From Halopiger aswanensis (GTDB taxonomy: Archaea; Halobacteriota; Halobacteria; Halobacteriales; Natrialbaceae), in the NCBI RefSeq assembly GCF_003610195.1, contig NZ_RAPO01000002.1:1054001-1118000 (forward strand): a stretch of 64,000 nucleotides of DNA, given 5' to 3'. Below, in pieces: positions 8,768 through 26,445 of the stretch. The notes under the pieces were generated by a model. The model saw nothing but the letters and a program-made list of their open reading frames with translations. It was not told the origin of the DNA and did not search any database. The position numbers were made by a program, and so were the translations under genes. Numbering within the stretch: position 1 is the first letter of the stretch; every line of letters begins with the position of its first letter.

Positions 8768-10659
8768 CTCCCGAAGAAGCCCGAAAACTGATAGAGAACA
8801 GCGGTACAGGTACGACGTACGTCGGTACACACACCAGTATACTCGGAGTCGAGGAAAACATCGGGATTCCTGACGACAAACGTCTGCTCCACGTCCTGAA
8901 TACCGGGCCAACCGGCTACGGGAAGACCCAGATGATGGTTCATGCTGCGTTACAAGACATCTACAAGGGCCGTGGTGTCTGTATGGCAGTTCCCAAAGGA
9001 GAGGCAATCAGACAGGTACTGGGAAAACTACCTAGAAGTCGTTTTGACGACGTTCTCTACCTCGATCCGTCTATTGACCCGGTTCCTTCGATCAACGTGT
9101 TAGAGCCGTACATCACAGAAGGAATGACTGAGGCACAGAAGGAGAACCAGAAAGAGATCATCGTCTCTGACCTCATCGACCTGTTCAAGCGGCAGAGTGA
9201 GAACTGGGGCGACCGGTTCGGCCGTATCCTTGAAACGTTGCTTAGAGCGCATCTCGACCTCAACATCTATCAAAATGAGACGAACTCGTTGATGGATGTC
9301 TTCCGCTGCGTCATCAACCCAGAACAACTCGTGGAGCTTATCGACAGGACAGAAAACACCGTTGTCAGGGAACAGCTCGTCCGTGTGAAGGAGGATCTGT
9401 CGAGCTACCATCTGGAACCGCTTCAACGCCGGTTGAACGACTTCATTATGAACTCAACCATACGGAGGATCGTCTCCTCGGAAGAATCTACAGTCAACTT
9501 CCGAGACGCGGTCAACCAGGGGAAGATCATCCTCCTCAATATACAGAAAGGCGAAGTCGGTGATACTGTCTCAACACTTATAGCAAGCATCGTGGTCACC
9601 AAGATCTGGGCTGCGGCACAGAGCCGTATCACCCAGAAACCCGGGGAGCGGACTCCATTCTACCTGTATATAGACGAACTACAAAACTTCGCCTCGGAAG
9701 GATCGGCGGTAGCGAAGATGTTGAGCGAGGCACGGGAGTACCGCCTTGGCTGCTGGCTTGCCACACAGTACCTCTCCAACCTCGACTCGAGTACAATGAG
9801 GGAAGCGGTTATCAACAACTGTCGTACCAAGATCGCCTTCAATCCCCTTGGATCCGACAATGAACGCCGACTACTCAACATGTTTACTGGTGTCAACAAA
9901 AGGGAGGTAGAAAACCTTGGAAAGTACCGTGCTGTTCTCCAGACACCAGGAGAACAGAAACAACGCTCAGCTATTATCGTCGATACATACCCGCCCTGGG
10001 ACGGCGACCCCCAACAGACTCAGGAGTTGAAGAAAAGGAGGATAGTGACAGGGACAACTTCTCCCGTCAAAGTGGAAGAGTCGTTAGGTAGAGGCAGAAA
10101 CGCAGGAGGAGAAAAACACGGAGAACTCCTGAGGAAGGCAAGGAACCTACTTGAGGAACGAGGAATACAGGTCAACCTTCTCTACCAGGGTGAAGGTGAC
10201 AGCAAGCCTGATGCAAAGGTATCTCTCCCCAATGGTTCAGTAGCTCATCTTGAGGCAGAAACTGGTACTCTGACGAAGCCGGCGAAAGTGCTGAAGAACT
10301 TCAAGAGAGCGGTCGAAAACGATGCGGAGTGCATCTTCGTTGTTGAACAGGGTAACGCAGCTAAACTACGGAGTATCGTTGAGGACCCTGTCAACCGTAA
10401 TGGGGACAAGTACGAGGATGAGTTCGGCAGTTACAGCTACTACACTGATGACGGCGACGAGTTCACCGATACCGAACTGATTCTGGATGGTGAGTACCGG
10501 GTTATTGAGATCAGTGAGAACGATCTTACAGTCCACAACAATATATCGGAGTGTCCTGAACTCGAGCACCAATCTCGGGAGGATTTGGAGCAGTTCTGTC
10601 TCTACCGGGAAGATGACGGGTTCTGTACTGAGTTGGAACAGAGGTGTGTTTTCAAATGA
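8764..10659 (+). CDS. VirD4/TraD-like coupling ATPase with C-terminal PD-(D/E)XK-like domain
   Basis: The 631-residue protein has a Walker A (GPTGYGKT) near residue 49, a Walker B/DEL segment (FYLYIDELQNF) near 300, and a Q-rich sensor (WLATQYLSNL) near 335, all typical of VirD4/TraD-type coupling proteins that feed DNA to a type IV channel. From about residue 440 a new domain begins. It has a helix, an acidic KPDAKV strand near 481, then HLEAETG near 495 followed by TKPAKVLKNFKRA, and a strand ECIFVVEQG. This D...ExE...K pattern is that of PD-(D/E)XK nucleases. No relaxase gene is seen in the operon, so the fused nuclease may process the transferred DNA. The nuclease reading is pattern-based and unproven. 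Confidence 0.75.
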   Translation: MTPEEARKLIENSGTGTTYVGTHTSILGVEENIGIPDDKRLLHVLNTGPTGYGKTQMMVHAALQDIYKGRGVCMAVPKGEAIRQVLGKLPRSRFDDVLYLDPSIDPVPSINVLEPYITEGMTEAQKENQKEIIVSDLIDLFKRQSENWGDRFGRILETLLRAHLDLNIYQNETNSLMDVFRCVINPEQLVELIDRTENTVVREQLVRVKEDLSSYHLEPLQRRLNDFIMNSTIRRIVSSEESTVNFRDAVNQGKIILLNIQKGEVGDTVSTLIASIVVTKIWAAAQSRITQKPGERTPFYLYIDELQNFASEGSAVAKMLSEAREYRLGCWLATQYLSNLDSSTMREAVINNCRTKIAFNPLGSDNERRLLNMFTGVNKREVENLGKYRAVLQTPGEQKQRSAIIVDTYPPWDGDPQQTQELKKRRIVTGTTSPVKVEESLGRGRNAGGEKHGELLRKARNLLEERGIQVNLLYQGEGDSKPDAKVSLPNGSVAHLEAETGTLTKPAKVLKNFKRAVENDAECIFVVEQGNAAKLRSIVEDPVNRNGDKYEDEFGSYSYYTDDGDEFTDTELILDGEYRVIEISENDLTVHNNISECPELEHQSREDLEQFCLYREDDGFCTELEQRCVFK

Positions 10660-11078
10660 GAGGGGATGAGTTGCCGTTAAGGGAGGAAGATATCGATGTC
10701 CTTGTCGAGATCAGTCACGGGAAAGATCTCCAGGAGATCACTTCGACTACGGTCTACGACAACGGGCAGGTAAACCACTGCTTCAGAAAACTCGAGGAAC
10801 TCGACCTGATCCAGGTGGACCGGCCTGACGGCTATACAACCAGATCTGTAAACGGTCAGAAACGGACATTTCGGACGCCGAAGAGAGGTACATTGACGAA
10901 TAAAGGCGAAGAAGTCGTGTCGGACCTAGAAAGGGACAGGGAGAGGTATGAGAGTTGGAGTCGAGAAGAACTTGTCCGAGAGGTCCAGGAGTTGAAACAG
11001 CAACTCAACGAGTTTGAAACCCGGTTCCAGACCTTCAAAGAGCAGGTGAGAACCCGGTTTAATGAAGAAAGGGATTAG
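10656..11078 (+). CDS. Winged-helix/coiled-coil protein closing the secretion operon
   Basis: The 140-residue protein starts at ATG 10656, overlapping the coupling ATPase stop (ATGA); a GTG at 10644 is less likely. Residues 5-75 form a MarR/PadR-like winged helix (helix, VNHCFRKLEELDLI recognition region, then a wing). Residues 90-138 are a charged coiled coil for dimerisation. It probably regulates the operon or acts as an accessory DNA-binding subunit. Its stop codon overlaps the convergent HerA stop. Confidence 0.6.
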   Translation: MRGDELPLREEDIDVLVEISHGKDLQEITSTTVYDNGQVNHCFRKLEELDLIQVDRPDGYTTRSVNGQKRTFRTPKRGTLTNKGEEVVSDLERDRERYESWSREELVREVQELKQQLNEFETRFQTFKEQVRTRFNEERD

Positions 11079-12715
11079 ATCAGGGCGTCTCTGTCTTCGA
11101 CTCCTTCCTCTTCGTCCGCTTCAGTAAGTCCGGAGGGTTCCGTGTCTTGACCGTTCCAGGCGTCAGTCCAGAGTTCTGTGGCGGGAAGGCTTTCCGCCTC
11201 GTGGCTGGTATACCGTTCACGTATCTGTGCTAGGAACGGGGTGTTCACGCTGTCACCGGCGATGATTGCTTGACCTGGTGTAAGGCCGGGAAGCTCATCC
11301 AGAAGGTCTTCTCCGACATCTTCAACCCCTTTCTTCACAGCGTCCTGATCTAAGGGGTTCTGTATCTGCATGATGATCTGGGTCTTACACTGTGAGAGGA
11401 CGTCGTCATCTATCTTGCTCGGACGTTGACTGATGATACCGACTCCGATACCGAACTTGCGGCCTTCGCTTAGGATCGTTCCCAAGATGCCTAGTGAGCG
11501 GGCGTCACCGTCGGCAGGGGCGAACCTGTGGCCTTCTTCTAAAAGTGTGAAGACAGGGAAATCAAGCTCGCTGTCCCTACCCTTTACGTGTTCTACCCGT
11601 GCATGGTTGATCTTTCTGAACAAGACGCTGAGAAGCATCTGTTGGTCACGGAGATCAAGGGTGTCGAGCTGGAGCACGGTGCATCGACCGGGTTGAAGTA
11701 GTTCTGGGAGTGAGAGATGCTTGCTGTGGTGGAAGAGGTCGCCGCCAAGTGCTTTCTCGATACGCCAGTCCAGGGCGCGGGCGCTACTCTCTAATCCTTT
11801 CTCTTTCCCGACCTCTTGGCACTTCTGCTGGAGATCGTTGGTCGAGATGTATTCGCTGTTGCCGTCACTACCTGACTGAAGTTCATCCCATGCTTCTGCC
11901 AGTACTTGTTCCTGAGCGTCCGATGGGTCGTCAAGCAGCGAGAACAGGTCGGAGACCGTGAGTTCGGAGATACGGATATGGATATCTTCAGGTTTTATCT
12001 TCTTGACCTCCGGACTGTACCCATCGTCTCCCTGAAACCGGTCGTCAGTCTCCATCTCTTGGAGTGATCCGTACTCGCCGTGTGGATCTGCGATAAGGAT
12101 GGAAGCGCGGGAATCCGGCTGCATCATCTCTTCGATCAGGACAGAAGAGGTGTAGGATTTCCCGCTGCCGGTCGAGGCTAACACCGAAAGGTGGGTCGAT
12201 GCGAAGTTGTCTATCGGGAGATCGATCTGTGTCTTTCCTGGCGGTCTGTGAAGCAGTTCTCCGATACGTGCGGAGCCTTCCTCCTCTGGGTCGACGTCTG
12301 TCAGATACTCCTCTAGGTCTGTATCTGAAGCGAGTTCAATAGTTGTCCCGGGCTGGGGAACGATACGGGGGTTGGTGAAGTCACCAAGCTTTTCATCGAA
12401 GTATCCGATGATGGTCGCCGTTATTTTGTAGAGGTCGACACCTTCTGTTGAGATACCGAGTCTACGGGCGACGGACTCCGGAGAGACACCGGGGTCGGCC
12501 ATGAAGTTGTCTGGGAAGCCTCGTTTCTGCTCACGGCTGGTTACCCGGGCGAAAATCTTCTTCTTCTCCTCTACGAGATCGCCATCGTCGTTTTCTACAG
12601 TAACGCTGCTTTCGTAGAAGATGAACTCACCTGTCTTCAACTCGGTATCGTCAGGTGTAACGAATACGAATTCGTTAGCCTGTTCTCCTGGTTCACAGAC
12701 TATTCCAACGGTCAT
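11075..12715 (-). CDS. herA: HerA-family DNA translocase, last gene of the Argonaute operon
   Basis: The 546-residue protein is a HerA hexameric translocase. It has an N-terminal HAS-barrel (residues 1-110), a Walker A (STGSGKS near residue 184) followed by IADPHGEYG, the arrangement characteristic of HerA, and a late FTLLEEGHRFAP segment (Walker B region) followed by GIISQRPSKID. HerA pumps DNA into its partner nuclease NurA during 5'-strand resection in archaea. NurA is encoded two genes upstream in the same operon. Only a small HAS-barrel gene lies between them, and its stop (12719) is 3 nt from this start. Haloarchaea usually have their own HerA, so this copy is element-borne. Confidence 0.9.
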   Translation of the reverse strand: MTVGIVCEPGEQANEFVFVTPDDTELKTGEFIFYESSVTVENDDGDLVEEKKKIFARVTSREQKRGFPDNFMADPGVSPESVARRLGISTEGVDLYKITATIIGYFDEKLGDFTNPRIVPQPGTTIELASDTDLEEYLTDVDPEEEGSARIGELLHRPPGKTQIDLPIDNFASTHLSVLASTGSGKSYTSSVLIEEMMQPDSRASILIADPHGEYGSLQEMETDDRFQGDDGYSPEVKKIKPEDIHIRISELTVSDLFSLLDDPSDAQEQVLAEAWDELQSGSDGNSEYISTNDLQQKCQEVGKEKGLESSARALDWRIEKALGGDLFHHSKHLSLPELLQPGRCTVLQLDTLDLRDQQMLLSVLFRKINHARVEHVKGRDSELDFPVFTLLEEGHRFAPADGDARSLGILGTILSEGRKFGIGVGIISQRPSKIDDDVLSQCKTQIIMQIQNPLDQDAVKKGVEDVGEDLLDELPGLTPGQAIIAGDSVNTPFLAQIRERYTSHEAESLPATELWTDAWNGQDTEPSGLTEADEEEGVEDRDALI

Positions 12716-12718
12716 CGT

Positions 12719-13333
12719 TTACATCCCCTCCATCTTGGTTTCCCATTCCAGATTTTTCTGTATCACATCGAGTGCGTCAGCCTCCTCAGGCCGTTTCTGT
12801 TTCAGTTGGTCCAGTATCTGTGATAGAATATCTTCAGCGAACCCGCCAGCTACGTCCACGATCCTCTGGTAGTATTCTAGGTGGAGTTCGTCGTTCAGTT
12901 CGTGGAACCGGACAACCTGGTCTTCCGGAAGCTTCCGGACGACGTCATCGACCTCTAAGGTCCATCGGGGGATCGAGTGGTCTGCCTCAACGATTTCACC
13001 GTCCTCCAGGTCTGCGTGTCCAAGGATGGCGATACCTGTCAGTATCTGTTTTTCGTCGACGTAGCTGGGCTGGAACACGTTCTGCTCTTCTGGCTGTGCA
13101 AGTCGTGGCCCCGTCCGTCCCTGGTCAGGATCTACGATCTGGGTGTCGTAGATAACGCCTATGAAGGCGCATTCTTGGTTTTCGATTGTCTTTTTGATGT
13201 AGACGAACTCGCCGAACTCGTAATCGGTGGGGTTCGGGGAGTTTTCACGCATTCGTTCTGTGTAGATCTCACAGATGTAATCGATGTGTGAGTTTGATCC
13301 AATGATTTTCCCGATTTCAGTGTTGTCTGTCAT
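12719..13333 (-). CDS. Stand-alone HAS-barrel protein between NurA and HerA
   Basis: The product from ATG 13333 has 204 residues. The start is chosen because GGAGG lies about 12 nt upstream and the preceding NurA stop (13338) is adjacent; longer in-frame extensions run into the NurA coding region. Residues 1-125 read like the HAS-barrel seen at the N-terminus of HerA (IGKIIGSNSHIDYICEI, then FGEFVYIK, then GVIYDTQIVDP, later PRWTLEVDDVVRKL). The rest is helical. HAS-barrels mediate assembly of HerA rings with partners, so the protein could be an adaptor between HerA and NurA or Rad50. The assignment is by pattern. Confidence 0.6.
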   Translation of the reverse strand: MTDNTEIGKIIGSNSHIDYICEIYTERMRENSPNPTDYEFGEFVYIKKTIENQECAFIGVIYDTQIVDPDQGRTGPRLAQPEEQNVFQPSYVDEKQILTGIAILGHADLEDGEIVEADHSIPRWTLEVDDVVRKLPEDQVVRFHELNDELHLEYYQRIVDVAGGFAEDILSQILDQLKQKRPEEADALDVIQKNLEWETKMEGM

Positions 13334-13337
13334 ATTT

Positions 13338-14555
13338 TTATCGTCGCCTCCGTTTTTTGCTGAGTGCTTTGCTGTCCCATTTGATGTCAATATTATGTTC
13401 GTTCGAAAAGTCTTGGAACATCCGTAGGAACTCCTCCCGTTCCTGCTTGCTGATAACGGCGTCTGCGTCAACCGCTTGTAGTATCTCCGGGTATCCACGG
13501 CCGATCCCACATTCTGCGCGGAGCGCTGAGAGAACGTGGTCTACCAATCCTTCGCGGTAGATCCACCGTGGGAAGTCCACCCGATCCATCTGCGGACCGG
13601 GACCGATGTTGAGGTATGTAAATAGGATGTCTTCTGAAAAGTCGTAGCTTTCTCCACGGTAGGTCGCAGTAAGCCAGTTGAGAGAGTTATCTCGCCGTGA
13701 GTTGAAGATGATGGAGCGGTCTCCCCAGTTTTCCATGAACTCGTTTAATACCTGGTAGTCTCGAAGTGTGACGTTGGTATCAGCGAGTTCAAGCGATTCA
13801 AGCATTTTGGCGAGATCACTGGCTTTTGAACCGGCGGTATAGCCAACAACCGGGACTTTGTGGTGTTTGCTGGCGGCTAAGACTTTGGCCAGTGATTCGA
13901 TATACCGTTTCTGCGTACTGTCATTGAACATCTGAGCGAACGAGAGGATTAACGGCCCGTCGTACATGACGACAGGCGGTGTCTCGTCCTCACTGTGTTC
14001 TTCAATCCGGTTGGCAAGTACCTCCATTTCGGATTCAAACCGGGTGAGAGAGGTCTCCTCATCGTCGATAAGGATATGACCGCTTTCCGGATCCTCGTAC
14101 AGAAGGTCTTCAGGTGTCAGGACTTCTGTTTCGACACCTCGTTGGTAATCCCCGTCTATTGTATGGTTATTAGCCATCCAGACAGCTTGGACAAGGGCAA
14201 CAGGCTGTTCAAACTCTGTCACCGGATCGATCTGTGAGCCGTCTGCGGCGATAGTAGTCGTGTTCTCGAGGTGGCTTCGAGCCCAGTCGTTAACCGCTTC
14301 ATGTGACTCCCAGTCCTTACTGTCCTCAAACGGGACGATCAAACCGTCTTGTTCGTTGAGTTCTTCTGTAGGAAGTGCGCCGGGGAGCGTGTAGTCGGCT
14401 AACTCCTCTTCGATCTCTGTTTTCGTATAGTCGGTGGTGGCTGACGTAGCTGCTTGACGGTACTCCTCGATCACTTCGTCTTGAACTGATTTGCCCTCGA
14501 ACTCGCTTCGTTTATTCTCGAGGTCTTGAGCCACGTGTTTCCTGTAAAGCGGCAT
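13338..14555 (-). CDS. nurA: NurA-family nuclease
   Basis: The 405-residue protein has the NurA signature. A catalytic DGS motif (IAADGSQ) lies near residue 105 and a second metal-binding Asp (VVMYDGPL) near 199, with a WYR-like segment and a highly basic C-terminal tail (KKRRRR). NurA is the RNase H-fold 5'-3' exonuclease that works inside the HerA ring. I chose ATG 14555, directly after the Rad50 stop (14557). ATG 14585 and TTG 14597 would lie inside the rad50 end. Close spacing with rad50 upstream and the HAS-barrel gene downstream points to one resection complex. Confidence 0.85.
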   Translation of the reverse strand: MPLYRKHVAQDLENKRSEFEGKSVQDEVIEEYRQAATSATTDYTKTEIEEELADYTLPGALPTEELNEQDGLIVPFEDSKDWESHEAVNDWARSHLENTTTIAADGSQIDPVTEFEQPVALVQAVWMANNHTIDGDYQRGVETEVLTPEDLLYEDPESGHILIDDEETSLTRFESEMEVLANRIEEHSEDETPPVVMYDGPLILSFAQMFNDSTQKRYIESLAKVLAASKHHKVPVVGYTAGSKASDLAKMLESLELADTNVTLRDYQVLNEFMENWGDRSIIFNSRRDNSLNWLTATYRGESYDFSEDILFTYLNIGPGPQMDRVDFPRWIYREGLVDHVLSALRAECGIGRGYPEILQAVDADAVISKQEREEFLRMFQDFSNEHNIDIKWDSKALSKKRRRR

Positions 14556-14556
14556 C

Positions 14557-17241
14557 CTACTGATCCACCACCTTTGAAGCTCCATTCTGTTTTTCAACAG
14601 CGATCACGTGTTCCGTCATCGACTCAAAGGTATCATCGTGACTGACGACGGTCAACTGCTCGAAACCGTTGAGTTCCTGGATCTGGTCGACGAGGTTGCC
14701 CTTCTTCTCGCTGTCGAGGTTGGTCGTCGGTTCATCCAGGAAGACGATATCAACGTCACTCAAGAGCTGAAGGATCGCCAGTCTTACAGCGAGTGCAGCG
14801 CTCATCTTTTCACCGCCGCTGAGTTTCTGGAACGGTTTCCGCTGGTCGTTTTCTTCGACAATAATTTTGTAGTCTTTCCGCCACTCCAGTTTCTCACCGG
14901 GATTGCCTCGAAGCTGGCGGTAGATCCGGTCTGCTTCCTTCGAGATCTTCTTGATCATGACTTCTCGGACCTGTTCACCGGCGTCCCTCATCTTGGTCCG
15001 GAGGAACTCCCCGTACTCCAGATCCTTCTTGAGTTCTGTGTATTCGTCTTCCTTCTCCTCGAGATCCTGCTTCGCTTCTTCCATCTCCTCGATCTCGTCC
15101 TCCAGGTCATCCACCTGGCCTTCTTTCTCCTCAATCCGGGTTTCGTACTCCCGAATATCGCCTTTCAAGTCATCGACTTCTGACTCCAGCTGTTCCAGTT
15201 CTTCTGGATCAAGCTGTTCTTCTTTCTCACTGAGCTGGTCCTCAAACTCTTCAACCTCTGACTCGAGGCCTTCAATTTCCTGTTCGAGATCGTCTACCCG
15301 TTCCTGTCTTTCCTCGACCTTTTCCGCTGTTTCTTCCTTGCTGACGTACTTCCGGTGGTCGTCCTCAAGCTCGTCTAAACGGTCCTCGATCTCCTCGATC
15401 TTTGTTTCAATATCCCCGAACTCATCCAGTTCGTCCTGTTTCTCTTCCTTCTTCTCCTCCCATTCTTCTAACTCCTCTTCGACCTCCTCAAGGCCGGACT
15501 CCGCATCCTTGTTGTTCTGGTAGGTGACTTCTGCTTCCTTGTAATCGGAGCGTGGGTCGTCCAGTTCCTCCAGTTCAGACTCAACCTTGTCTTTGGAGTC
15601 GATTTCTTCCTCCAAGCTTTTGATCTCCTTCTTGATCTCCTTGATCTCCGTTTCCTGCTCCTGTTTCTCCTCCTGTTTCTCTTTGAGTTGAGGGTTGAGG
15701 TCGTCAAGACGCTGGACCTGCCGTTGAGCTTCTTCGGCCTCTTCAATCTCCTCTTCTAACTCCTCAAGCTTGGAGTCGATTTCCTGAATCCTGTTCTCAG
15801 CACTCTCCTTCTCCTCCCGTTTTTCGGTTAGGACTTTTTGCCGGTGTTCCGCATCTAAATCCTGGCCACAGGTCGGGCAGTCGGCGCCTTCTGCGTCTTC
15901 AAGGATAGAGATCGCCTCTTTGTAGTCGTCGATATTCGCTTCGAGACGGGACTTCTCATCACGGAATTCCTGTTCTTTCTCTTCAAGACTCTCCAGCTTT
16001 TCCGCTGTCTCCTTCTTTTCCTTGATCTCCTCTATTTCCTTCTCGAGATCCTTTATCTCCGTCTCCAGCTCGTCTAACTCGTCTTCAGCGTCTTCTAAGT
16101 CGGTTTTCAGTTCCTCGATCTTATCTTCCTTATCTTCAATCCCGTCTAACTTGTCTTCTAACTCTTTCTGACGCTTCTTCTTATCTTCCAACTCATCCAT
16201 CTTCTCCTGCGCTTTTTCGGCCTTCTCGACTTGTTCCTCCAGGTTCTCCTTTTTCGCCTCTAACTGGCTGATCTTTTTCTCGATCTCTGTGATCCGATCC
16301 TCTACGTCGTCTTTCTCCTGTTTTCTCTCACGTAGCTTTTCCAGTTCCTCGTCTTTCTCTTCATACTCCTCGTATGCATCCTCGACCTCGTCGATGATTT
16401 CCTGGGCTTCCTCCGCTTCCTCTAATGCTTTTTCCGCTTCTCCCAAGCTTTCTTCCCGGTTCTCTATAGTATTCTCTTTCTCCTTGATCTTCTTTTCCAG
16501 CTCCTCGATCTCATCATCTATTTCTTGAAGCGTTTCCAGACGATCTTCCTTGTCCTCTAACTGCTCCTCAGCATCTTCTAGATCGGTTTCCAGCTCCTCG
16601 ATATCATCCTCGAGATCGTCTTTCTCCTCCCGGGTTTCTTCAAGTCCTTCAACCTGTGCGTGGAGTCCTTCAAGATCCTTCTCTATCTCGTTGATTTCCT
16701 TACGGAGCTCATCGTTTACGTCTTTGAGCTCGCTCCAGAGATCGTCGTAGACATCGACGTCGAGAAGCGGGTTGAAAACGCCTTCCCGTTTCGACTGGCT
16801 TTTCGCGAAGTCGTTTGTGAACTGTGTTTGTGGAACCCCGATACTGGACTTCCAAAGCTTTTCAAGACTGTTAGACTCGGGGACGCCAAGATGTTCTTTC
16901 AGCCATTGTACCCGTTCGTCCTTGTCGGTTAGATCCAGTTTGTTCCCATCCTCGTCGAGGATTCGGTGTATGGATCGGTCGGCGTACCGTTCGACAGTGT
17001 ACTCCTTCCCGTTCTTGTTGGAGATGAACTTGACCGCGACTTTTCCACTGTTTTCCCCGTCTCTCACGAATTCGGACTGGGTGAGGCGGAGATGGTCGAA
17101 TAATGCGAACCCGACAGCTTCCTGGACGGTGGATTTGCCTGCGCCGTTCTGTCCGATGACTGCGTTTACGCCTTCAGTGAGTTTGATAGTGCCTTGTTTG
17201 TAGCTCTTGATGTTGGATAAGTCGACTTCAGTAATCTTCAT
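14557..17241 (-). CDS. rad50: Rad50-family SMC-like ATPase
   Basis: The 894-residue protein has Walker A (GQNGAGKST, residues 31-38), a very long charged coiled coil (about 190-750), a zinc hook CPTCGQDL near residue 453-460, the ABC signature LSGGEKMSAAL near 805 and Walker B (VFLDEPTTNLD). This is the Rad50 architecture. With Mre11 it forms the complex that detects and opens DNA ends. Its start overlaps the mre11 stop (17238), showing coupling. It is probably a second, element-borne copy in addition to a chromosomal Rad50. The Glu-rich coil produces spurious reading frames on the other strand. Confidence 0.92.
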   Translation of the reverse strand: MKITEVDLSNIKSYKQGTIKLTEGVNAVIGQNGAGKSTVQEAVGFALFDHLRLTQSEFVRDGENSGKVAVKFISNKNGKEYTVERYADRSIHRILDEDGNKLDLTDKDERVQWLKEHLGVPESNSLEKLWKSSIGVPQTQFTNDFAKSQSKREGVFNPLLDVDVYDDLWSELKDVNDELRKEINEIEKDLEGLHAQVEGLEETREEKDDLEDDIEELETDLEDAEEQLEDKEDRLETLQEIDDEIEELEKKIKEKENTIENREESLGEAEKALEEAEEAQEIIDEVEDAYEEYEEKDEELEKLRERKQEKDDVEDRITEIEKKISQLEAKKENLEEQVEKAEKAQEKMDELEDKKKRQKELEDKLDGIEDKEDKIEELKTDLEDAEDELDELETEIKDLEKEIEEIKEKKETAEKLESLEEKEQEFRDEKSRLEANIDDYKEAISILEDAEGADCPTCGQDLDAEHRQKVLTEKREEKESAENRIQEIDSKLEELEEEIEEAEEAQRQVQRLDDLNPQLKEKQEEKQEQETEIKEIKKEIKSLEEEIDSKDKVESELEELDDPRSDYKEAEVTYQNNKDAESGLEEVEEELEEWEEKKEEKQDELDEFGDIETKIEEIEDRLDELEDDHRKYVSKEETAEKVEERQERVDDLEQEIEGLESEVEEFEDQLSEKEEQLDPEELEQLESEVDDLKGDIREYETRIEEKEGQVDDLEDEIEEMEEAKQDLEEKEDEYTELKKDLEYGEFLRTKMRDAGEQVREVMIKKISKEADRIYRQLRGNPGEKLEWRKDYKIIVEENDQRKPFQKLSGGEKMSAALAVRLAILQLLSDVDIVFLDEPTTNLDSEKKGNLVDQIQELNGFEQLTVVSHDDTFESMTEHVIAVEKQNGASKVVDQ

Positions 17242-18611
17242 TCGTTGTCACCTCCGGTTTCAGGGAACAGTTCGCGGCGGCGTTCTTTGACGGTTTCAGC
17301 GACTGACTCCGGTGAATCACCGGCTAACAAGCTGTTCTTTACCGAGGAAAGGGTTTCTGCGACGCCCTCGACATCGGTTTCGTACCGGGAGTCTTGACCG
17401 GCTAGCTGCTGGAAAACAGCGTGTTCTAGCTTGTCTCTATCGATCTGGCCGTCCTCGTTCTGTATCTCCTCTTCGCCTTCTTCGAGGTCTTGGATGACGC
17501 TGATGGCTTCCCGTGACTCGGTTGCGTCTTTCAAGCTGACGTGTAACGCATCGGTTTTCTGTTCGACGATCTCACGGATCCGTTCGATATCCAGCTGGGA
17601 CCGGTTGAAGTTGAGGAGGCCTTCGAGGTGAAGGTCGATAACCGGGTTCCGTGGCTGTCCTTGATTGGTGTACCGATCTTTCTGCTGTACTTGTTGAAGA
17701 CCCGGGATTTCATCCATAACCTTCTGTTTGAAGCCTTGTTCGAGTTCCTCCGGTGTGTCGTACTGGTCGACCTCGAAGTCGATTCTGTAGAAGGGACGGC
17801 GTTTCGAGAGGCGGTGTTCAGCCTCAAAGCTTCCGTCCGGTTCAACATCAACAAGGTAGTATCCGAGGTCCCACCGTGCCTGTCGTGTGTTATGTGCTTC
17901 AGGAGAGCCAGGGTTGAAGATCCAGTCGCCGTGGCTGTACTGTTTATGGAGGTGGCCGAGTCCGAGGTAGTCGACTAGTTCTTCGACCGGTTCAAGCTGG
18001 TTGTATGAGATGCCGCCGCTCATCCCGGGAATATGGCCTTCGATGCCGAAGTGGCCGAGGAGAACGGTGGTATCGGGTTCGCCCTTCTCTTCGTTGACCT
18101 GGCGGATTCCTTCCGCAACGGTTTCTAGGTACCGTCCGGTTTGTTGGCCAAGGTACTGAAGCCCGAATATCCTGACACCGTTTATCTCGATGTAGCCTGA
18201 TGAGGTTCCAGGGTTCTCCGGGTCGTGTTCCTCAAATACTGGGCCATCGCCATCGAGATCGGCGTTCAGCAGCACCAGGTTTTCCTTGGTATGAAGGTAT
18301 TCGAGCCAGTGAAGATCTTCTTTGTAGAGCTTGGCATCGTGGTTTCCCCGAATACCGACGACCGGGATATCTTCTTCACGTAGTTTTTCGAGTCCTCTCT
18401 CTGCGTCACTGAGGGCGAGTGCGTTAACGTTCTTGTTGTGGAAGAGATCGCCGCCGAAGACCGTGAAGTCTACGTCGTGTTCAATGGCTTGGTGGATCAC
18501 CCAGTTGTAGGTAAGGTTCATGTCGTCCCGCCGTTTCTTCAGGTTGTACTGTCGGTGCCCGATATGGGCGTCCGAGAAGTGGAGGAACCGCGTATTGTTT
18601 GATTTTGACAT
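17238..18611 (-). CDS. mre11: Mre11-family nuclease
   Basis: The 457-residue protein carries the metallophosphoesterase motifs of Mre11 in order: SDAHIG (residues 13-18), GGDLFH (53-58), GNHD (89-92), LLGHFG near 206 and GLGHLHK near 245. Mn2+-dependent Mre11 cleaves DNA at ends and hairpins and is gated by Rad50, which is encoded next. The C-terminal 180 residues include the Rad50-binding region. It starts 26 nt after the Argonaute stop. The tight order Argonaute-Mre11-Rad50-NurA-HerA suggests a joint role in degrading targeted DNA. Confidence 0.92.
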   Translation of the reverse strand: MSKSNNTRFLHFSDAHIGHRQYNLKKRRDDMNLTYNWVIHQAIEHDVDFTVFGGDLFHNKNVNALALSDAERGLEKLREEDIPVVGIRGNHDAKLYKEDLHWLEYLHTKENLVLLNADLDGDGPVFEEHDPENPGTSSGYIEINGVRIFGLQYLGQQTGRYLETVAEGIRQVNEEKGEPDTTVLLGHFGIEGHIPGMSGGISYNQLEPVEELVDYLGLGHLHKQYSHGDWIFNPGSPEAHNTRQARWDLGYYLVDVEPDGSFEAEHRLSKRRPFYRIDFEVDQYDTPEELEQGFKQKVMDEIPGLQQVQQKDRYTNQGQPRNPVIDLHLEGLLNFNRSQLDIERIREIVEQKTDALHVSLKDATESREAISVIQDLEEGEEEIQNEDGQIDRDKLEHAVFQQLAGQDSRYETDVEGVAETLSSVKNSLLAGDSPESVAETVKERRRELFPETGGDNE

Positions 18612-18637
18612 ATTTTAGACCTCTTTTCCTTAGTGTC

Positions 18638-20929
18638 TTAAATCATTGCCATATTTTCCGGGATATCGATTCCTGCGGACAGATTTTCTCCTAGGTTTTG
18701 GGTGAGTATCTGTGGAAGCGCGTACTTGCCTTGTTTAAAGACTGAGGACCAGTTGAGATGGCTGAGAGCGTAATATTCCTTCAACAGGTGTTCCGCGGAG
18801 GGTTGAGGTATGTCCTCCCTGTTGAGGGAGACGTGGTCTTTCGCAGTGATCTCGAGTGGTTGAGCGGTTCCACGATCCGGTTTGTGGGAGACGAGGAGCC
18901 CGCTGTCGTCTCCGTACATGACTGCGCTTCCACCTGAGGCGTTGGTGAACCGTGTTCCATCTCGTGAGATCAGGCGTTTGTTCGGCGACTTGTTCACGCT
19001 GATCACGTCGATGATCATATCGTCGGGAAGCAGGCTGTCTTCCTCCAGAATCTGTTTGATCGGCCGCTTGTTCTCGCTGGGAACCCCTTCCCGGATCACT
19101 TCTTTCATCATCCGCTGTTCCTTCCAGGAGATCTTCCCGTCCTTTGCGAAGACGAGGCGTTCGAAGTGGAACGGTTTCTCACCGCTGGATTCCTGTCTTC
19201 TATGGAAGGCTGAAACCTTTCTCAAGAGTTCGTTCAGGATGTCGTGGAACACAGATTCCTTCAAACGTTCTCCGCCACTCGGCTGTGAACCGGTTGCGAT
19301 GTACCGTCCGTAGGAGTCGGTAGTGGCGCTGTACGCAGTGGCTGCGGACTTCTTGTCAGGCCTCCGGGAGACGTCGTGGTATGCGTAACAGGTGCTTCCC
19401 GGCGTTACACCTGGTATATGGGCGTCCGCGGGTTCATCAAGTATCCAGACAGCGGATCCGACGTTCCCGAGTTTGACGTAGACTTGGGAAGAGGTGTTCA
19501 CCCCGATGAAGTATCCGTTATCATTAGCGAGCTTGACCACGTTCTTGTACTCGATTCCCTGGGCAGGGACAGGACTGCTTCCGAACAACCGTTCGAACAG
19601 TTTTCCCCGTGCTTGGAAGTAGACATCTGACTGCTGGCCGGGAAGAACGACGAAAGCCAACAGATCGGAGTCTACTTGATCGAGCTCGGAACGGATCTCG
19701 GTTATCCTGTTGGCGTATGCGTTACTGTTCTGGCTTCCGACGTCGATGATCCCGTTGTCACCGACTTCCGTACACCGTTCTATACTGCCGAGGTTTAGCT
19801 GGCTGTAGATCGATTCGAGCTCTTTGAATCCCCGGTCGATTTCCGGTCCGTTCTGTGGAGTGATTACGACGTACTTACCATTGACCTGGTCAGCATATGG
19901 ACCGTGGTTTTTCAAAGCGGTATGGAGGTCGGTGACACTGGTTTTGAAACCGTCTCCGAGACGGACGTCGAATTCGTAAGCGTTCCTGAACTTTTCAGTC
20001 TTGAACCCGAGTTCGGAAGTGGTGGTGAGTTTGCTGAAGTCGGCTTCTTCGCCGCCGAACTTCATGGAGCCGAAGCAACTTTCCACCATGTTGGCGGCTT
20101 CAGACACCCGTGTCTTCGGATCTTTCTTGAGTTCGTCAGGAAGACTGCGGCCTCTGCTGTAGCTGCTGAAGACGCAGGACCGTGGGTACGGTAGCTCCTT
20201 GTCGAAGGATGGAACGTAGATATTGACCATCTCTTCGTCCGGGTCCACGAACCCGATATCGTGTTTCTTCTTCCAGTATTTCGGGGTCGGGTATGTTTTG
20301 CCGTTGAGCTCGAATGATTTCTCCGAGGCGGTGACTCCTGCCCGCCCGGTTAACCGGCCTCCTCTCCAGCTCGGAAGGATCTGGACGTTGACCTGGGAAT
20401 CGGTTCTGTCTGCTTCCTCGATTTCTTTCTCGGTCAACGTCTCCATGATACGGGTGCAGGGATCTACCGCTACCGTGGCTTTCCCGTTGATGTACTCCGC
20501 CTGTATCTCGTATGCTTCTTTGAAGTCGGTATCCTCATTCAATAGGTCGTCAACCTTGACGTACTTCCGACCGACTTTCTGGAACCCGTTTTCCGCGAGA
20601 TGGGTGCGGACGCGGTGTTTCCAGGCCTCTTTCAGTTCATACAGTGTTGCGTCGGTCTCGCTGTGGAACTCCGGTTTGAACGAGTTGTAGATCGATGAGA
20701 CCGCTGTCAGGTAGCTGCGGTCCGGGTCGATCAACGTAATATCTGCTTCTGTGTCTCGAGGTGCTAATGTGCAGTCGATCCCGTTCTTGTTGAGGTTAGA
20801 GATGATCGACTGGAGGAAGGAGATCCTGTCCTTTCTCTCATCGACAGGTAGTCCTTTCATTGAGACACGGCGCACCTTAGCACCCTTTTCGGGCGAGTTC
20901 CGCATCTGGAAGATGTTGGTGAACATCAT
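18638..20929 (-). CDS. ago: Long prokaryotic Argonaute (PIWI protein)
   Basis: The 763-residue protein has the Argonaute layout: N and PAZ-like regions (about 1-340), MID (about 350-500) and PIWI (about 500-763). In MID, PAQGIEYKN (455-463) and VYVKLGN (483-489) match the guide-5'-end and 'KLGG.pW' regions. PIWI shows D519 in HDVSR, E554 in GGERL as the likely glutamate finger, and D597 in FAKDG. The fourth catalytic position, H or D in active enzymes, aligns by eye with Q744/N745 after YALPQ, so nuclease activity may be altered or absent. Argonautes use small guide nucleic acids to bind or cut targets. The start overlaps the upstream gene's stop (ATGATG), and Mre11 follows. The long-pAgo call is solid; activity is open. 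Confidence 0.88.
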   Translation of the reverse strand: MMFTNIFQMRNSPEKGAKVRRVSMKGLPVDERKDRISFLQSIISNLNKNGIDCTLAPRDTEADITLIDPDRSYLTAVSSIYNSFKPEFHSETDATLYELKEAWKHRVRTHLAENGFQKVGRKYVKVDDLLNEDTDFKEAYEIQAEYINGKATVAVDPCTRIMETLTEKEIEEADRTDSQVNVQILPSWRGGRLTGRAGVTASEKSFELNGKTYPTPKYWKKKHDIGFVDPDEEMVNIYVPSFDKELPYPRSCVFSSYSRGRSLPDELKKDPKTRVSEAANMVESCFGSMKFGGEEADFSKLTTTSELGFKTEKFRNAYEFDVRLGDGFKTSVTDLHTALKNHGPYADQVNGKYVVITPQNGPEIDRGFKELESIYSQLNLGSIERCTEVGDNGIIDVGSQNSNAYANRITEIRSELDQVDSDLLAFVVLPGQQSDVYFQARGKLFERLFGSSPVPAQGIEYKNVVKLANDNGYFIGVNTSSQVYVKLGNVGSAVWILDEPADAHIPGVTPGSTCYAYHDVSRRPDKKSAATAYSATTDSYGRYIATGSQPSGGERLKESVFHDILNELLRKVSAFHRRQESSGEKPFHFERLVFAKDGKISWKEQRMMKEVIREGVPSENKRPIKQILEEDSLLPDDMIIDVISVNKSPNKRLISRDGTRFTNASGGSAVMYGDDSGLLVSHKPDRGTAQPLEITAKDHVSLNREDIPQPSAEHLLKEYYALSHLNWSSVFKQGKYALPQILTQNLGENLSAGIDIPENMAMI

Positions 20930-21648
20930 CTGTCGACACCTCGCAGCGTCTTCTGGAACGTTTCAACGCCTAGGCTGGAAACCACTTCATCCGTGATGTA
21001 CCGGAGGATCTCTACCTGAACGTCTTCAGGTATCTTTCTGCCGTGGACCGTGACCTTCCCTTTCTCGTAGAAGCTGACGTTGTAGATCGCTTTGTCGGGG
21101 AGATCGACCTTGACCTTCTCCAACGGTTCGGATCCGTACTTCTCCCAAAAGCTCGTGTCCTGTAAGCCGGGGAGGTACCGTGCTGAAACGTTGTCGGGTC
21201 TCTGGCTGGACGGTGCGAAGTCTGCTTCACGGACCTTGTCCGACCGGTCTACAATACTGTGTAATGTATCGCGGTCAAACTCCACAGGTTCGTAGAAGAT
21301 GTCCTCATTGAGGAGGTCCGCAACCGTTTGAACGACTTCGTTCTCAACGTCCTTGTTGGGAAGGTTGGCGTCGTAGGCCACGTACCCGTTTCCGAGGAAG
21401 ATGATGGGGTACATGTCCGCGACTTTGATCTCTTCATCATCGCCTTCTAGAGTGGTTACTTCGGTTTTCTCCTCTTTCGCGTACTCGACGTAACACATCC
21501 CGTCTTGGAACGTTTCAAAGGTTCGTGGCAAGGTGCCAGACCGTAGTTCCTCGGATGATTCCAAGGCGGACATGTGTTCTACACGGTTTTGAAGGGTTTC
21601 AAGGTCGATTCCGTCTTCTTGAAGTGGAAGGATTTTATAACTCGCCAT
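20926..21648 (-). CDS. Unknown protein between ATPase and Argonaute genes
   Basis: The 240-residue protein (ATG 21648; a GTG at 21657 is possible) is not recognised. It is acidic with mixed alpha/beta character, contains no Cys cluster, membrane span or nuclease motif that I can see, and ends with a region (VSFYEKGKVTVHGRKIPEDVQ) that has the look of a beta-hairpin plus helices. It overlaps the upstream ATPase gene (stop 21635) and its stop overlaps the Argonaute start, so the three are made together. Many prokaryotic Argonautes have small dedicated partners; this could be one, supplying a missing domain or guide handling. That is inference from position only. Confidence 0.7.
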   Translation of the reverse strand: MASYKILPLQEDGIDLETLQNRVEHMSALESSEELRSGTLPRTFETFQDGMCYVEYAKEEKTEVTTLEGDDEEIKVADMYPIIFLGNGYVAYDANLPNKDVENEVVQTVADLLNEDIFYEPVEFDRDTLHSIVDRSDKVREADFAPSSQRPDNVSARYLPGLQDTSFWEKYGSEPLEKVKVDLPDKAIYNVSFYEKGKVTVHGRKIPEDVQVEILRYITDEVVSSLGVETFQKTLRGVDR

Positions 21649-22759
21649 GGTACTCACTGGTTTGATTTATTCTAGTCTGGATGAATGGTTTGACTGGTTC
21701 TTTGATCTGGTAGTATGCTGAACGCCCCTGCTTCTCTGACTCAACTAACCCCGCTGATCGGAGGTCTTTCAGGTGGTAGGATACGGTGGACTTGTCGCGA
21801 TCGATCAGGTCCACGAGCTGTGATGGACGTATCCCGCTCTTGTCGTGCCATAGGACCATGTGTGTCAGTATTGTTAGTTTAGTTTCCGACAGGTCGTACA
21901 CTTCCTCTTCCAATCCAACTAGGTTCATCTTCTCCGCTGCGGCGTCCACAGCTTCTGCATCACCGATCTCCGTCTCTTTCAGGAACGTCTCTCTCAGCGT
22001 CTCCAACGCCAGTAGGGTGAAAAGCCGTGGAATACCGGAGCTGTAACCGTGGATCTTCTGGAGAAGTGCCTCTGGGAGCTCCAGCCCGTCATCGGCCACT
22101 ACTCTGAATATCTGTTCTAAGGCGTCAACCGTCTCGTCTTCCTGGAAAGAGGTGAGGTGGATCTCTTTGGACGCTGGAACCACGTCTTCAACGTCTTCCC
22201 GGTGATGGTTCCAGTACTCCGGCGTCCAAGAGGTGAGGAATAAGGCGTCATCGACGACAGTATCGATCACGCGCAGTGCTTCAGTCAGGCTCTCTATCCG
22301 TTTCCATTCGCAGTTATCGATGAAGATGACAACTTTCTCGAGGTCACGGAGTTCATCCCGTATCTCGAATATCTGCTCTTCTTCGTCTTCGATATCGGTG
22401 AATCTGTCTGCCTTAAGATACTTCTGTGTGATCTCCGGTTCTGTCTGTTTGAGAAGGTGCTGTACAGTGTGGAGAAACTGGGTCTTCCCTATTCCGGAGA
22501 CTCCAATTATCGGTAGGTGGTAGATGTTGCTTCTCTGCGAGAAAAAGCCGAGGTATTCAGCAGTAGATTCAAGCTGTTCCTCGTGATTAACCGTTTTTTC
22601 CGGGTTTTCGTAGAAGTACTTAGTGAGATACTCTATACTACTTTTGTTCGGATCGATTCCTTTGTCCTGTAGCCAGGTCTCGTAGTTGCTGACCTGGCCT
22701 TTTTGGCCTCTCTGAAAGGCTTCTTCGAACCGATTCAGCTTGTCAGATTCATCAACCAT
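21635..22759 (-). CDS. P-loop ATPase with C-terminal winged helix, first gene of the Argonaute operon
   Basis: The 374-residue protein has an AAA/STAND-type ATPase core with Walker A GVSGIGKTQ near residue 86, Walker B VVIFIDNCE near 143, and a sensor-like LFLTSW near 174. A lid region (GYSSGIPRLFTLLAL near 239) follows, and a winged-helix domain (SQLVDLIDRDKSTVSYHLKDL near 323) lies at the C-terminus. Orc1/Cdc6 shares this order, but the motifs fit the wider archaeal ATPase/STAND group better. It may sense invading DNA or repress its own operon, since a pair of CAAACTAT repeats lies just upstream of it. It leads the operon and overlaps the next gene. Confidence 0.75.
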   Translation of the reverse strand: MVDESDKLNRFEEAFQRGQKGQVSNYETWLQDKGIDPNKSSIEYLTKYFYENPEKTVNHEEQLESTAEYLGFFSQRSNIYHLPIIGVSGIGKTQFLHTVQHLLKQTEPEITQKYLKADRFTDIEDEEEQIFEIRDELRDLEKVVIFIDNCEWKRIESLTEALRVIDTVVDDALFLTSWTPEYWNHHREDVEDVVPASKEIHLTSFQEDETVDALEQIFRVVADDGLELPEALLQKIHGYSSGIPRLFTLLALETLRETFLKETEIGDAEAVDAAAEKMNLVGLEEEVYDLSETKLTILTHMVLWHDKSGIRPSQLVDLIDRDKSTVSYHLKDLRSAGLVESEKQGRSAYYQIKEPVKPFIQTRINQTSEYHGEL

Positions 22760-22782
22760 ATCTCAAACCACTACTGTCTTTT

Positions 22783-22819
22783 CAAACTATACTTCTACCA
22801 CCAAACTATTTAAACCTTG
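22783..22819. promoter_or_regulatory. Divergent promoter region of the Argonaute and PLD-helicase genes, with direct repeats
   Basis: The 134-bp gap between the two divergent genes holds two copies of CAAACTAT (22783-22790 and 22802-22809), 19 bp apart, and a TATA-like ACTATTTAAACC at 22805-22816. Repeats about two helical turns apart near a start site are typical of an operator. The winged-helix protein encoded next door is an obvious candidate binder. Confidence 0.45.
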
Positions 22820-22893
22820 GGTCAGATACTCAACAATAGAGGGAATCAGTCCAGAAACCGGCGGTAAAGCACAGTCAATCCCCGGGATCCAGT

Positions 22894-24936
22894 ATGAGCG
22901 AGAACCCAAACACCATTCTCGAAACGGCAATCCAGCTCGAACAGACCAACGAAAACGCGGAACTAGAACTTGCAACACTGAAAACAAGAAACAACTTTGA
23001 AACCTACTTCACGGACGACATAGTCCATATCCGCGCCATAACATACTCAGACTCTCCAGAAACCCTTCTCAACCTGTTAGAAAACGTTGGAACCGACGAC
23101 ATCTCACTCGAAGTCGTTATCGGCGACAACACCCTCGACTACCGAAAAAAGCTCCGGGGAAAAGAACAGCTCGCCACCAAACTCGACAGACTCCAACGGG
23201 ACAACCGTCTTCAAATCCTCCTCGCCGCCACCAAAGGAAACGAGGTCCACACCAAACTATACATACTACAGCATAGAGACGGCTCAAGAACCAACATCCT
23301 CGGATCACCCAACCTCAGCGAACAAGGATGGGGATCAACACGGCAGAAAAACGCGATCGCCGTCTTCCGAACCGACGGGGACCAACCCCTCGACAACGTC
23401 TTCGACCACTGGTACGACGAACACAAACGGTACGGCGAACCCTTCATGGAAGACCTCACAGAACAGCTAGAAGACGTTGACAGCGATGAGAAACGTGAAG
23501 AGATCATCCATGCATGGATAGACGGACGCACTACCTCACAAGAAGAGGAAGCCGAACTCGAACAGGAACTCACAGAAAAACTCGACGAAGCCAACGTCGA
23601 AACAGCCACTATCATCGGAGAGTTTGAAGACCCGGACCTCACATTAGCAGTCACCGACAACCCTGAAGAGGCGGACGAAACGCTCTCCCAATCACTCAAC
23701 GGCTACAGCGACTACCTGCCAAAACTCGAGGAAGAAACCCGGTCGTTCGACGCCTCCGTCGACGGGAAAACACTTCGAGCCTCTCCAGGCGCGATCAGTA
23801 AACACGCGAAAGAGAAGTTCGGAGCGCCGAAAATGTGGTTCAACAGCGATGACCAACTGATACTACAGACACCGACCCAGAAACAGCTGAAACTAACGCG
23901 GGAACTTCCTGACGATCCCGACCGAATAGACCAAGCCCTCGAATACCTCGAGGAATACTTTGAAACGGTCGATAACTTCGGGCGAACCGACCACGCAAAA
24001 GCAGTCAAGGCCCAGATGTGGGAAGCCATTATCTGGTTCTTCTGGGCACCATTCATCAACCGGTACGCCGCCGTCTACAAGGAACACGGGATCGACCTCG
24101 ACAAGTACCTTCCCAGCCTCTACGTGTACGGAGAACCAGGCAGCGGAAAAGGAACGCTCTCACGGTACGCATTCCACCTCCTCTCCGACGGCCACGTAGA
24201 GGAACCGGAGGACGGCGACTCACTCAACAAGACACGGCTCCGATCCGTAAGAAATGTTGACTCAGTCTTCCCCGTCGTGTTCGACGATATCGACCCCAAC
24301 GATCTAGACACTGAAACCTTCCTCAACTTCCGGCAGAAACACTGGACCGGAGAAGTAGATATCCCCGCGCTCGCATTCATCAGCAACGACAACCTACCCC
24401 GCAACCGGATCCAACACCGAGCTAAGATCCTCAACTTCGATATCCAGTTCAAAGACACCCATAGAACAGCTAAATACGTGAACGACCTTACAAACCGTTC
24501 TAACCCGGTGTTCACATGGTTCGCCCACCTGTTCAAAGACCGGGACGTGATCATGCGTTCAGAGGACGCTGATACGCTTGCTGAAGCACGTGAAGTCTTC
24601 AAAGAGCTCTACCAAAGGGCGGATCGTGAACTTCCAGAGTATTTCCCCGATGAGCCTGCGGAGAAGAAGTACGATATCGGGAAATGGATGTGGGAAGACG
24701 CGTACGAAAGCGGCCTAGTCGAGTTCAAAAGACGTAACGGCAACCTCATCGCCGAGTTCGACGACTCGCTCAGCGTCTACAGCAGCGTCAGAAAATACGC
24801 GCGTACACTGCCCAAAGAGACCCGGGCACAACAAGACGGTAACCAGATACTTATCCGGGCAGAACAACAAGCACTCGACTGGTTCCCCTTCGACACAGAC
24901 TCAAACGGAGGATTCCTGAACCGCCTCCTTAGCTGA
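22894..24936 (+). CDS. PLD-family nuclease fused to AAA+/SF3-like helicase
   Basis: The 680-residue protein has two parts. Residues 30-170 carry one phospholipase-D active site: H119-x-K121 with GSPN at 137-140, as in Nuc-type and BfiI-type nucleases, which dimerise to form a catalytic site. Residues 370-600 form a P-loop ATPase: Walker A GEPGSGKGT (413-421), Walker B VVFDDID (461-467) and a sensor ISND (about 497) followed by Arg residues, similar to superfamily-3/AAA+ helicases of viruses and plasmids. The middle (180-290) is acidic. It is divergent from the Argonaute operon. PLD nucleases are a known neighbour of prokaryotic Argonautes, so a defence role is plausible, while the helicase part could instead serve element replication. 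Codon use is GC-richer than neighbours. Confidence 0.75.
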   Translation: MSENPNTILETAIQLEQTNENAELELATLKTRNNFETYFTDDIVHIRAITYSDSPETLLNLLENVGTDDISLEVVIGDNTLDYRKKLRGKEQLATKLDRLQRDNRLQILLAATKGNEVHTKLYILQHRDGSRTNILGSPNLSEQGWGSTRQKNAIAVFRTDGDQPLDNVFDHWYDEHKRYGEPFMEDLTEQLEDVDSDEKREEIIHAWIDGRTTSQEEEAELEQELTEKLDEANVETATIIGEFEDPDLTLAVTDNPEEADETLSQSLNGYSDYLPKLEEETRSFDASVDGKTLRASPGAISKHAKEKFGAPKMWFNSDDQLILQTPTQKQLKLTRELPDDPDRIDQALEYLEEYFETVDNFGRTDHAKAVKAQMWEAIIWFFWAPFINRYAAVYKEHGIDLDKYLPSLYVYGEPGSGKGTLSRYAFHLLSDGHVEEPEDGDSLNKTRLRSVRNVDSVFPVVFDDIDPNDLDTETFLNFRQKHWTGEVDIPALAFISNDNLPRNRIQHRAKILNFDIQFKDTHRTAKYVNDLTNRSNPVFTWFAHLFKDRDVIMRSEDADTLAEAREVFKELYQRADRELPEYFPDEPAEKKYDIGKWMWEDAYESGLVEFKRRNGNLIAEFDDSLSVYSSVRKYARTLPKETRAQQDGNQILIRAEQQALDWFPFDTDSNGGFLNRLLS

Positions 24937-26056: not shown

Positions 26057-26061
26057 GAATA

Positions 26062-26445
26062 ATGTCTTCGGTATCAAGAGGAGATGTGGTCTGGGTTACG
26101 TTTCCAGATCCTGATGATATTCCAGATGAAGAGTTTGAAAACCCACACCCGGCTGTTGTAGTCCAAAACGACACTCGGAACCAGAGATATGATACTACAA
26201 TCGTAGCACCACTAACGACAAGCCAAGACTCTCCTGAAGAGTTCGCTGATGTGGCAGTCCCTTCAACAAGTGAGGGAGTTGAAGAAGACAGTATAGCAAA
26301 ACTTGGAATGCTTAGTACTGTCTCTGTTCCAGGGAGAATTATGGATCAGAGTGAGAACTCCGATGTATGGAAAATGGGCGAACTTTCAGCCAGCAAAATG
26401 AATGAGATTGAGGCACGTCTAGAAGTTCTATTGGGAATTGCCTGA
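26062..26445 (+). CDS. MazF/PemK-family toxin (ribonuclease)
   Basis: The 127-residue protein matches the MazF/PemK fold: an N-terminal RGDVVWVTFPDP strand, then HPAVVVQNDTRN near residue 29, and IVAPLTT near 48 with the usual Ser/Thr. MazF toxins cut mRNA at short sequences. Its fit to the family size (110-130 residues) and its position 5 nt after a Panacea-like gene support the toxin role. It is followed by a hairpin at 26459-26471. Confidence 0.8.
   Translation: MSSVSRGDVVWVTFPDPDDIPDEEFENPHPAVVVQNDTRNQRYDTTIVAPLTTSQDSPEEFADVAVPSTSEGVEEDSIAKLGMLSTVSVPGRIMDQSENSDVWKMGELSASKMNEIEARLEVLLGIA

Follow-up and report, generated by a model that had tools for sequence, protein, structure and literature searches.

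An Argonaute encoded in a tight gene array with Mre11, Rad50, NurA and HerA on a haloarchaeal mobile element

The described systems closest to the locus reported here concern Argonautes (Ago) that act with a partner and the HerA-NurA nuclease machine. In Haloarcula hispanica, the long-A Ago-PLD system APAP expels plasmids and limits a virus (PMC11442185), and in E. coli, CbAgo breaks DNA, which RecBCD then degrades, RecBCD also shaping the guide pool (PMC10164581, PMC10269773). HerA-NurA breaks down double-stranded DNA, and an antiviral role has been suggested for it (PMC12977600); HerA and NurA are described as not present in H. volcanii (PMC7776575) and as not apparent in halophilic archaea (PMC12977600). 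Where DNA-guided Argonautes obtain their guides, and how the DNA that they target is finally disposed of, are questions still open in the field. Here, we analyzed a stretch of 64,000 nucleotides from Halopiger aswanensis (hereafter the window; assembly GCF_003610195.1, contig NZ_RAPO01000002.1, positions 1,054,001 to 1,118,000), in which an ago gene lies on a mobile element in a tight array with genes for Mre11, Rad50, NurA, a HAS-barrel-like protein and HerA. We consider it probable that the array and a divergent PLD gene form a nine-gene mobile defence locus, in which invader DNA would be opened by Ago and the PLD partner and destroyed by a dedicated resection complex, which would perhaps also supply guides.

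The original prediction had described eight leftward genes between 11075 and 22759, and all eight were found there, intact and on the minus strand, transcribed in the order ATPase-wHTH, X243, Argonaute, Mre11, Rad50, NurA, HAS-barrel, HerA. It had missed a ninth gene that is also part of the set, encoding a PLD nuclease that diverges from the operon head 134 nt away. The locus comprises the following features, in window positions.

22894 to 24936, plus strand: PLD-family nuclease with a C-terminal P-loop domain and an HTK...GSPN motif, homologous to Ago-associated PLD proteins.
22760 to 22893, no strand: divergent intergenic region, presumed to hold the promoters for both the operon and the PLD gene; the sole gap above 30 nt in the locus.
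21635 to 22759, minus strand: ATPase with Walker A motif GVSGIGKT and a C-terminal winged helix-turn-helix (wHTH); first operon gene.
20926 to 21648, minus strand: X243, an unknown protein encoded beside the ATPase-wHTH gene; no family match.
18638 to 20929, minus strand: Argonaute of a divergent long type, with D519-E554-D597 and a probable N745 (PADLOC, hhalign, alignments).
17238 to 18611, minus strand: Mre11 phosphodiesterase with intact motifs (Pfam Metallophos, 1.3e-11).
14557 to 17241, minus strand: Rad50 with Walker A, CPTC zinc hook, LSGGE signature and Walker B (Pfam AAA_23).
13338 to 14555, minus strand: NurA nuclease (Pfam NurA, 1.3e-31; start by alignment).
12719 to 13333, minus strand: HAS-barrel-like protein, without a Pfam match; its place between NurA and HerA is kept in 37 cassettes.
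11075 to 12715, minus strand: HerA translocase (Pfam DUF87, 9.1e-36).

The tight spacing reported earlier is borne out, adjacent genes either overlapping slightly or being separated by no more than 26 nt. This holds because homologue-conserved starts were used for two genes: the listed open reading frame (ORF) of nurA extends to 14597 and its homologues start at codon 15 (14555), and that of the HAS-barrel gene, which was named by its position and its conservation in the 37 cassettes, extends to 13510 with a homologue-based start at M60 (13333). The spacing suggests that the eight genes are carried on one transcript, and a TTTAAATA box, read by eye, lies about 47 nt upstream of the ATPase-wHTH start. 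The hallmark motifs are intact in Mre11, Rad50, NurA and HerA, and the four genes are co-directional and contiguous except for the HAS-barrel gene between nurA and herA; the NCBIfam models for Mre11 (3e-21) and HerA (9.6e-53) score under their curated cut-offs. The divergent PLD gene, which is separated from ago by 1.96 kb and two intervening genes, scores below the Pfam cut-offs for PLDc_2 (5.8e-4) and NgoFVII (4.5e-4), and homologous PLD genes are found at many haloarchaeal Ago loci.

The window Ago shares about 20% identity with the other Agos of haloarchaea. Its PIWI domain is homologous to those of known prokaryotic Agos (pAgos), as judged from PADLOC (pAgo, E=6.5e-52) and from hhalign against haloarchaeal Agos (P=97.8, E=6.7e-13), the Pfam Piwi score of 28.3 bits lying slightly below the 28.9 cut-off, and, as regards an N-PAZ-MID-PIWI domain order, residues 99-731 align to full-length haloarchaeal Agos in profile comparison. 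D519, E554 and D597 line up with the catalytic D-E-D of the family, and cleavage activity is likely. A phmmer comparison of the window Ago with PDB sequences gave no match, and a Pfam Piwi search of its own genome did not pick it up, so that family-model searches under-count it.

The order of these genes recurs. The eight-gene order was found exactly in another genus, in Halobellus clavatus CGMCC 1.10118 (NZ_FNPB01000001.1, L152), which disposes of the notion that it is unique by chance. The order there is identical for all nine genes, whose products are 60-81% identical to those of the window (highest for the PLD protein, at 81%) with zero internal stops. The per-site differences (pN 0.11-0.24, pS 0.62-0.89) show the nine-gene locus to be under purifying selection. 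NurA is present in 37 of 392 related Halobacteriales genomes, and the copies read sit in a conserved Mre11-Rad50-NurA-HAS-HerA cassette, bar a few broken or contig-cut ones; the Ago profile matches 59 genomes. Both occur together in 12 genomes, in nine of which they lie no more than 10 kb apart, one of these nine Agos being a remnant. The binomial probability of this proximity is 1.4e-18, or 1.2e-9 if proximity within an island is assumed to be tenfold likelier, both values ignoring relatedness. Chance adjacency of Ago and the cassette is therefore rejected, on the proximity statistics and on the identical order in Halobellus clavatus.

The linked loci are organized in several ways. The co-directional ATPase-wHTH-X243-Ago-cassette order is that of the window and L152, and five further genomes (G304, G119, G011, G211 and G248) have an HhH/RNaseH-Ago-DUF2797-X243-ATPase-wHTH array divergent from the cassette, usually with a PLD gene at its end; named records with this configuration are Halopiger djelfimassiliensis, Halobellus inordinatus and Natrinema hispanicum. 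In G174 the order is Ago-PLD-cassette, G273 carries Ago-cassette with a broken Ago, and in G179 an Ago remnant lies ahead of an intact cassette. A related locus in Halorubrum vacuolatum (L156) keeps the cassette and the HhH/RNaseH gene, but its X243 is divided between two ORFs and no Ago can be recognised in it. Mapped on an Ago tree, the link between Ago and the cassette requires four changes, and on a NurA tree five, at least four of which are forced by well-supported branches; the trees are quick ones, in which the window Ago sits on a very long branch and its exact place is unsure. As reconstructed on both trees, the link is of several independent origins, at least four on each.

The Mre11-Rad50-NurA-HerA set is the textbook archaeal repair operon, and the locus could be such an operon with Ago as a recent passenger. 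The remnant in G179 (L004, 9307-11173) is in line with this, the Ago beside the intact cassette being cut to about 160 C-terminal residues, with an ORF ahead of it that shows no detectable similarity to Ago, which would reflect either decay or a remodelled small protein. Against a passenger stand the Ago of Halobellus clavatus, 72% identical and with the same neighbours, and the other Ago clades that have independently joined similar cassettes; we consider a passenger very improbable. The host's own copies of Mre11, NurA and HerA bear on the same question, as the prediction would have been undermined if the resection genes were the host's only copies and unrelated to Ago. This is not so for Mre11, of which a separate, diverged copy lies on another contig, but it is for NurA, which had no match elsewhere in the host genome and is the only copy detected, and for HerA, of which the element carries the only close copy, other HerA-family matches being distant. 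The idea that these genes are simply the host's repair set was rejected.

The pairing of Ago with resection enzymes extends beyond this cassette. An end-resection module lies near Ago in 30 of the 48 haloarchaeal Ago loci read, the window-type cassette in 8, a parallel Mre11/Rad50-like set in 7 and an AddAB-type module in 15, with labels taken from profile scores and not from curated annotation. The parallel set (L107, L110, L111, L112, L114, L122 and L140) consists of Mre11, a Rad50-like protein, a protein of 430-457 aa and HerA; for example, G009, of the same genus as the window host, has a co-directional Mre11-Rad50-457-HerA-PLD-Ago array. The 457-aa protein is probably NurA-like, hhalign giving an E of 3.3e-5 at a probability of only 72%. 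The AddAB-type loci carry, by Pfam, AddB-like/PD-(D/E)XK/UvrD genes or AddA/AddB pairs, Ago or Ago-PLD being followed by AddB-like, PD-(D/E)XK and UvrD/AddA genes in L117, L119, L120, L121, L123, L124, L125, L129-L131, L135, L137, L141 and L142; 11 of the 15 belong to one close clade, so that the counts overstate the number of events. These other two modules occur in 22 of the 48 Ago loci versus none of the 30 cassette loci without an intact Ago (Fisher, 3e-6). Comparative genomics gives good support to a coupling of Ago to DNA end resection. A wider proposal, which we advance tentatively and at slightly less than even weight, is that haloarchaeal Agos as a group work with dedicated end-resection machines encoded next to them as self-contained, guide-directed systems of DNA destruction, resection both destroying the target and making guides, and that the window locus is the fullest mobile version.

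Several points weigh against the proposed nine-gene defence locus. In 18 of the 48 Ago loci there is no resection module within the stretch read, and the five-gene Mre11-HerA cassette stands without Ago in 28 of the 37 genomes, sometimes behind other genes, which argues that it has a function of its own. The counts are moreover inflated by close relatives. In the window Ago, the fourth catalytic position is unaligned, with N745 as a candidate that is conserved in two complete homologues and a remnant (N is an accepted variant at this position; PMC11442185), and the AlphaFold model, built on a five-row alignment, has a predicted local distance difference test (pLDDT) score of 32. The frequent cassettes without Ago would also fit two independent defence modules that share a promoter and an island, Ago/PLD acting alone and the cassette acting alone against linear or broken DNA, with their adjacency due to defence-island clustering, as would the presence of the cassette near McrB-like AAA, GmrSD-type and TerB/DEAD-helicase genes. 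On the other hand, the short overlaps and 26-nt junctions and the exact order kept between families speak for one unit, and island clustering alone would not predict that the linkage arose repeatedly and independently, or that Ago was convergently paired with further resection enzymes, so that we regard independent modules as unlikely, if the least unlikely of the alternatives. Viral contigs searched with Ago and NurA gave no match, nor did PLSDB searched with the window Ago; NurA matched four haloarchaeal megaplasmid records in PLSDB, and the neighbourhoods of the two that were read contained no gene annotated as Ago. In these two megaplasmids (L174, CP002989.1; L175, NZ_CP084885.1), the cassette comes after a TerB-N/ATPase/DEAD-helicase trio, so that it may serve as a portable effector behind more than one kind of front end.

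The two genes at the operon head are not specific to Ago. X243 had no match in Pfam, PADLOC or NCBIfam, its AlphaFold model (five-row alignment) is of low confidence (pLDDT 48), and it is present in 11 of the 392 genomes; wherever a well-scored copy was read, the ATPase-wHTH gene adjoined it. The operon that the pair heads in G167 and G367 resembles a cyclic oligonucleotide-based antiphage signalling system (CBASS) and also encodes a SMODS cyclase, a SLATT-like effector with two transmembrane (TM) segments and a TGT-like protein (PADLOC 5.9e-136 in G167), and in G155 the operon of the pair has cyclase and TM genes; only the G167 operon proteins were scanned, G367 and G155 being matched by size and sequence start. 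The CBASS-like operons headed by the pair are L169, L170 and L171. An Ago-specific role of the pair was thus rejected, as it also heads these CD-NTase/TGT/2TM operons, and it is best read as a sensor or regulator common to unrelated defence systems and not as an Ago subunit. The earlier interpretation is supported in part, through the recurrence of the gene order; it had overlooked the PLD partner. That the pair is shared with CBASS-like operons is also an argument for the window locus being a defence system.

The mobile nature of the surrounding DNA, proposed at the outset, is confirmed by a tyrosine integrase, perfect 44-bp direct repeats in a tRNA-Gly gene, a GC shift and transfer ATPases. 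The element spans 63,761 bp at 51.3% GC, versus 66% in the chromosomal flanks, and is integrative and probably conjugative. Its defining features are as follows.

33529 to 33572, no strand: attR, the 44-bp repeat inside tRNA-Gly (3' part), by alignment.
G000:C2:1023768 (window position -30232, outside the window), no strand: attL copy, 63,761 bp left of attR.
32222 to 33343, minus strand: tyrosine integrase, abutting the tRNA end (Pfam Phage_integrase, 3.4e-16).
5922 to 10659, plus strand: genes for VirB4-like and TraG/TraD-like conjugation ATPases, carried by the element outside the defence locus.

The element also carries, at 25043-26445 (plus strand), a 337-aa Panacea-type antitoxin-like protein (by eye, without a Pfam match) followed by a 127-aa PemK/MazF-like protein, the two being its probable toxin-antitoxin pair, and, near its integrase end, an Mrr-type restriction protein with a zinc ribbon (26481-28574, minus strand) and a GmrSD-type enzyme (30408-32189, plus strand). 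The VirB4/TraG-like genes raise the alternative that the locus serves the element's own DNA in transfer, replication completion or post-conjugation repair, NurA-HerA preparing or trimming the transferred DNA and Ago helping to finish replication or separating copies. This would have precedents, as DNA transfer in Thermus depends on a NurA-like and a HerA-like protein of ICEth1 (PMC5365140) and Thermus and cyanobacterial Argonautes aid replication completion (PMC7776575, PMC10269773). The conjugation genes, however, form a separate converging cluster, homologous loci lie in settings without transfer genes in the stretches read, and the head pair is that of CBASS-like operons; a role in element DNA processing therefore appears distinctly unlikely.

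In the defence mechanism that we favour, Ago and its PLD partner would recognise DNA that is invading or multicopy and open it, Mre11-Rad50 from the same operon would process the resulting ends, and NurA-HerA with the HAS-barrel protein would translocate along the duplex and degrade it. Short degradation fragments may go back to Ago as guides, such that recognition and destruction would reinforce each other in the way suggested for CbAgo and RecBCD in E. coli, and the ATPase-wHTH/X243 pair would most likely be the sensor or regulator turning the locus on. Guide-directed targeting coupled to processive destruction is what we infer from this arrangement; that DNA is the target, that guides are supplied, that the steps follow in this order and that Ago touches the resection complex physically all belong to that inference. 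The steps are drawn by analogy with Ago-PLD (PMC11442185), CbAgo-RecBCD (PMC10164581, PMC10269773) and HerA-NurA (PMC12977600).

Encoding of an Ago with Mre11, Rad50, NurA or HerA is provisionally regarded as undescribed, since no report of it was found in the open-access full texts searched. The Ago of Methanocaldococcus jannaschii presumably lies beside Rad50 and Mre11 (MJ1321-MJ1323) and is not known to have a NurA/HAS/HerA/PLD set there; such a neighbourhood, if real, would foreshadow the link described here. The main texts of two Ago surveys (Makarova 2009, PMC2743648; the 2018 pAgo survey, PMC6299218) contain no Mre11, Rad50 or HerA partner. As in APAP (PMC11442185), a haloarchaeal Ago is found with a homologous PLD-type partner bearing HxK and GSxN motifs, and plasmids and viruses, the targets of APAP, would be expected to be those of the window locus. 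On the other hand, the PLD gene of the window is divergent and outside the ago operon, whereas ago and agaP of APAP share one operon, and the HxK-GSxN spacing is about 15 residues versus 49 in APAP, so that the window locus, as judged from its genes, is not a strict APAP member; at L103, the PLD motif spacing is as described for N. pellirubrum. The window operon further adds the ATPase-wHTH, X243 and a complete Mre11-Rad50-NurA-HAS-HerA set, and the APAP main text contains none of the words Mre11, Rad50, HerA and NurA. The likeness to CbAgo and RecBCD lies in an Ago that would act with an end-resecting helicase-nuclease, for destruction and possibly for guides. However, RecBCD is a housekeeping enzyme of the host, and the E. 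coli link joins it to a foreign Ago, whereas the resection set of the window is archaeal, unrelated and encoded in the ago operon, which makes the source of guides and the fate of targeted DNA genetically testable by single-gene deletion in a haloarchaeon without HerA/NurA. The SIR2-HerA and HerA-DUF anti-phage systems, as far as they are cited in PMC12977600, likewise join a HerA translocase to an effector, which may be a nuclease, but with no Ago, Mre11 or Rad50 and without NurA in the effector role. Finally, the archaeal mre11-rad50-nurA-herA operon (PMC7776575, PMC12977600) clusters the same four enzymes, whereas the window type is mobile, patchy and accessory (37/392), includes a HAS-barrel gene and is Ago-linked. 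Haloarchaea, described as without nurA and herA, thus carry both, patchily, in accessory modules that are mobile. This supports the recent proposal that HerA-NurA acts against viruses and is not solely an enzyme of repair.

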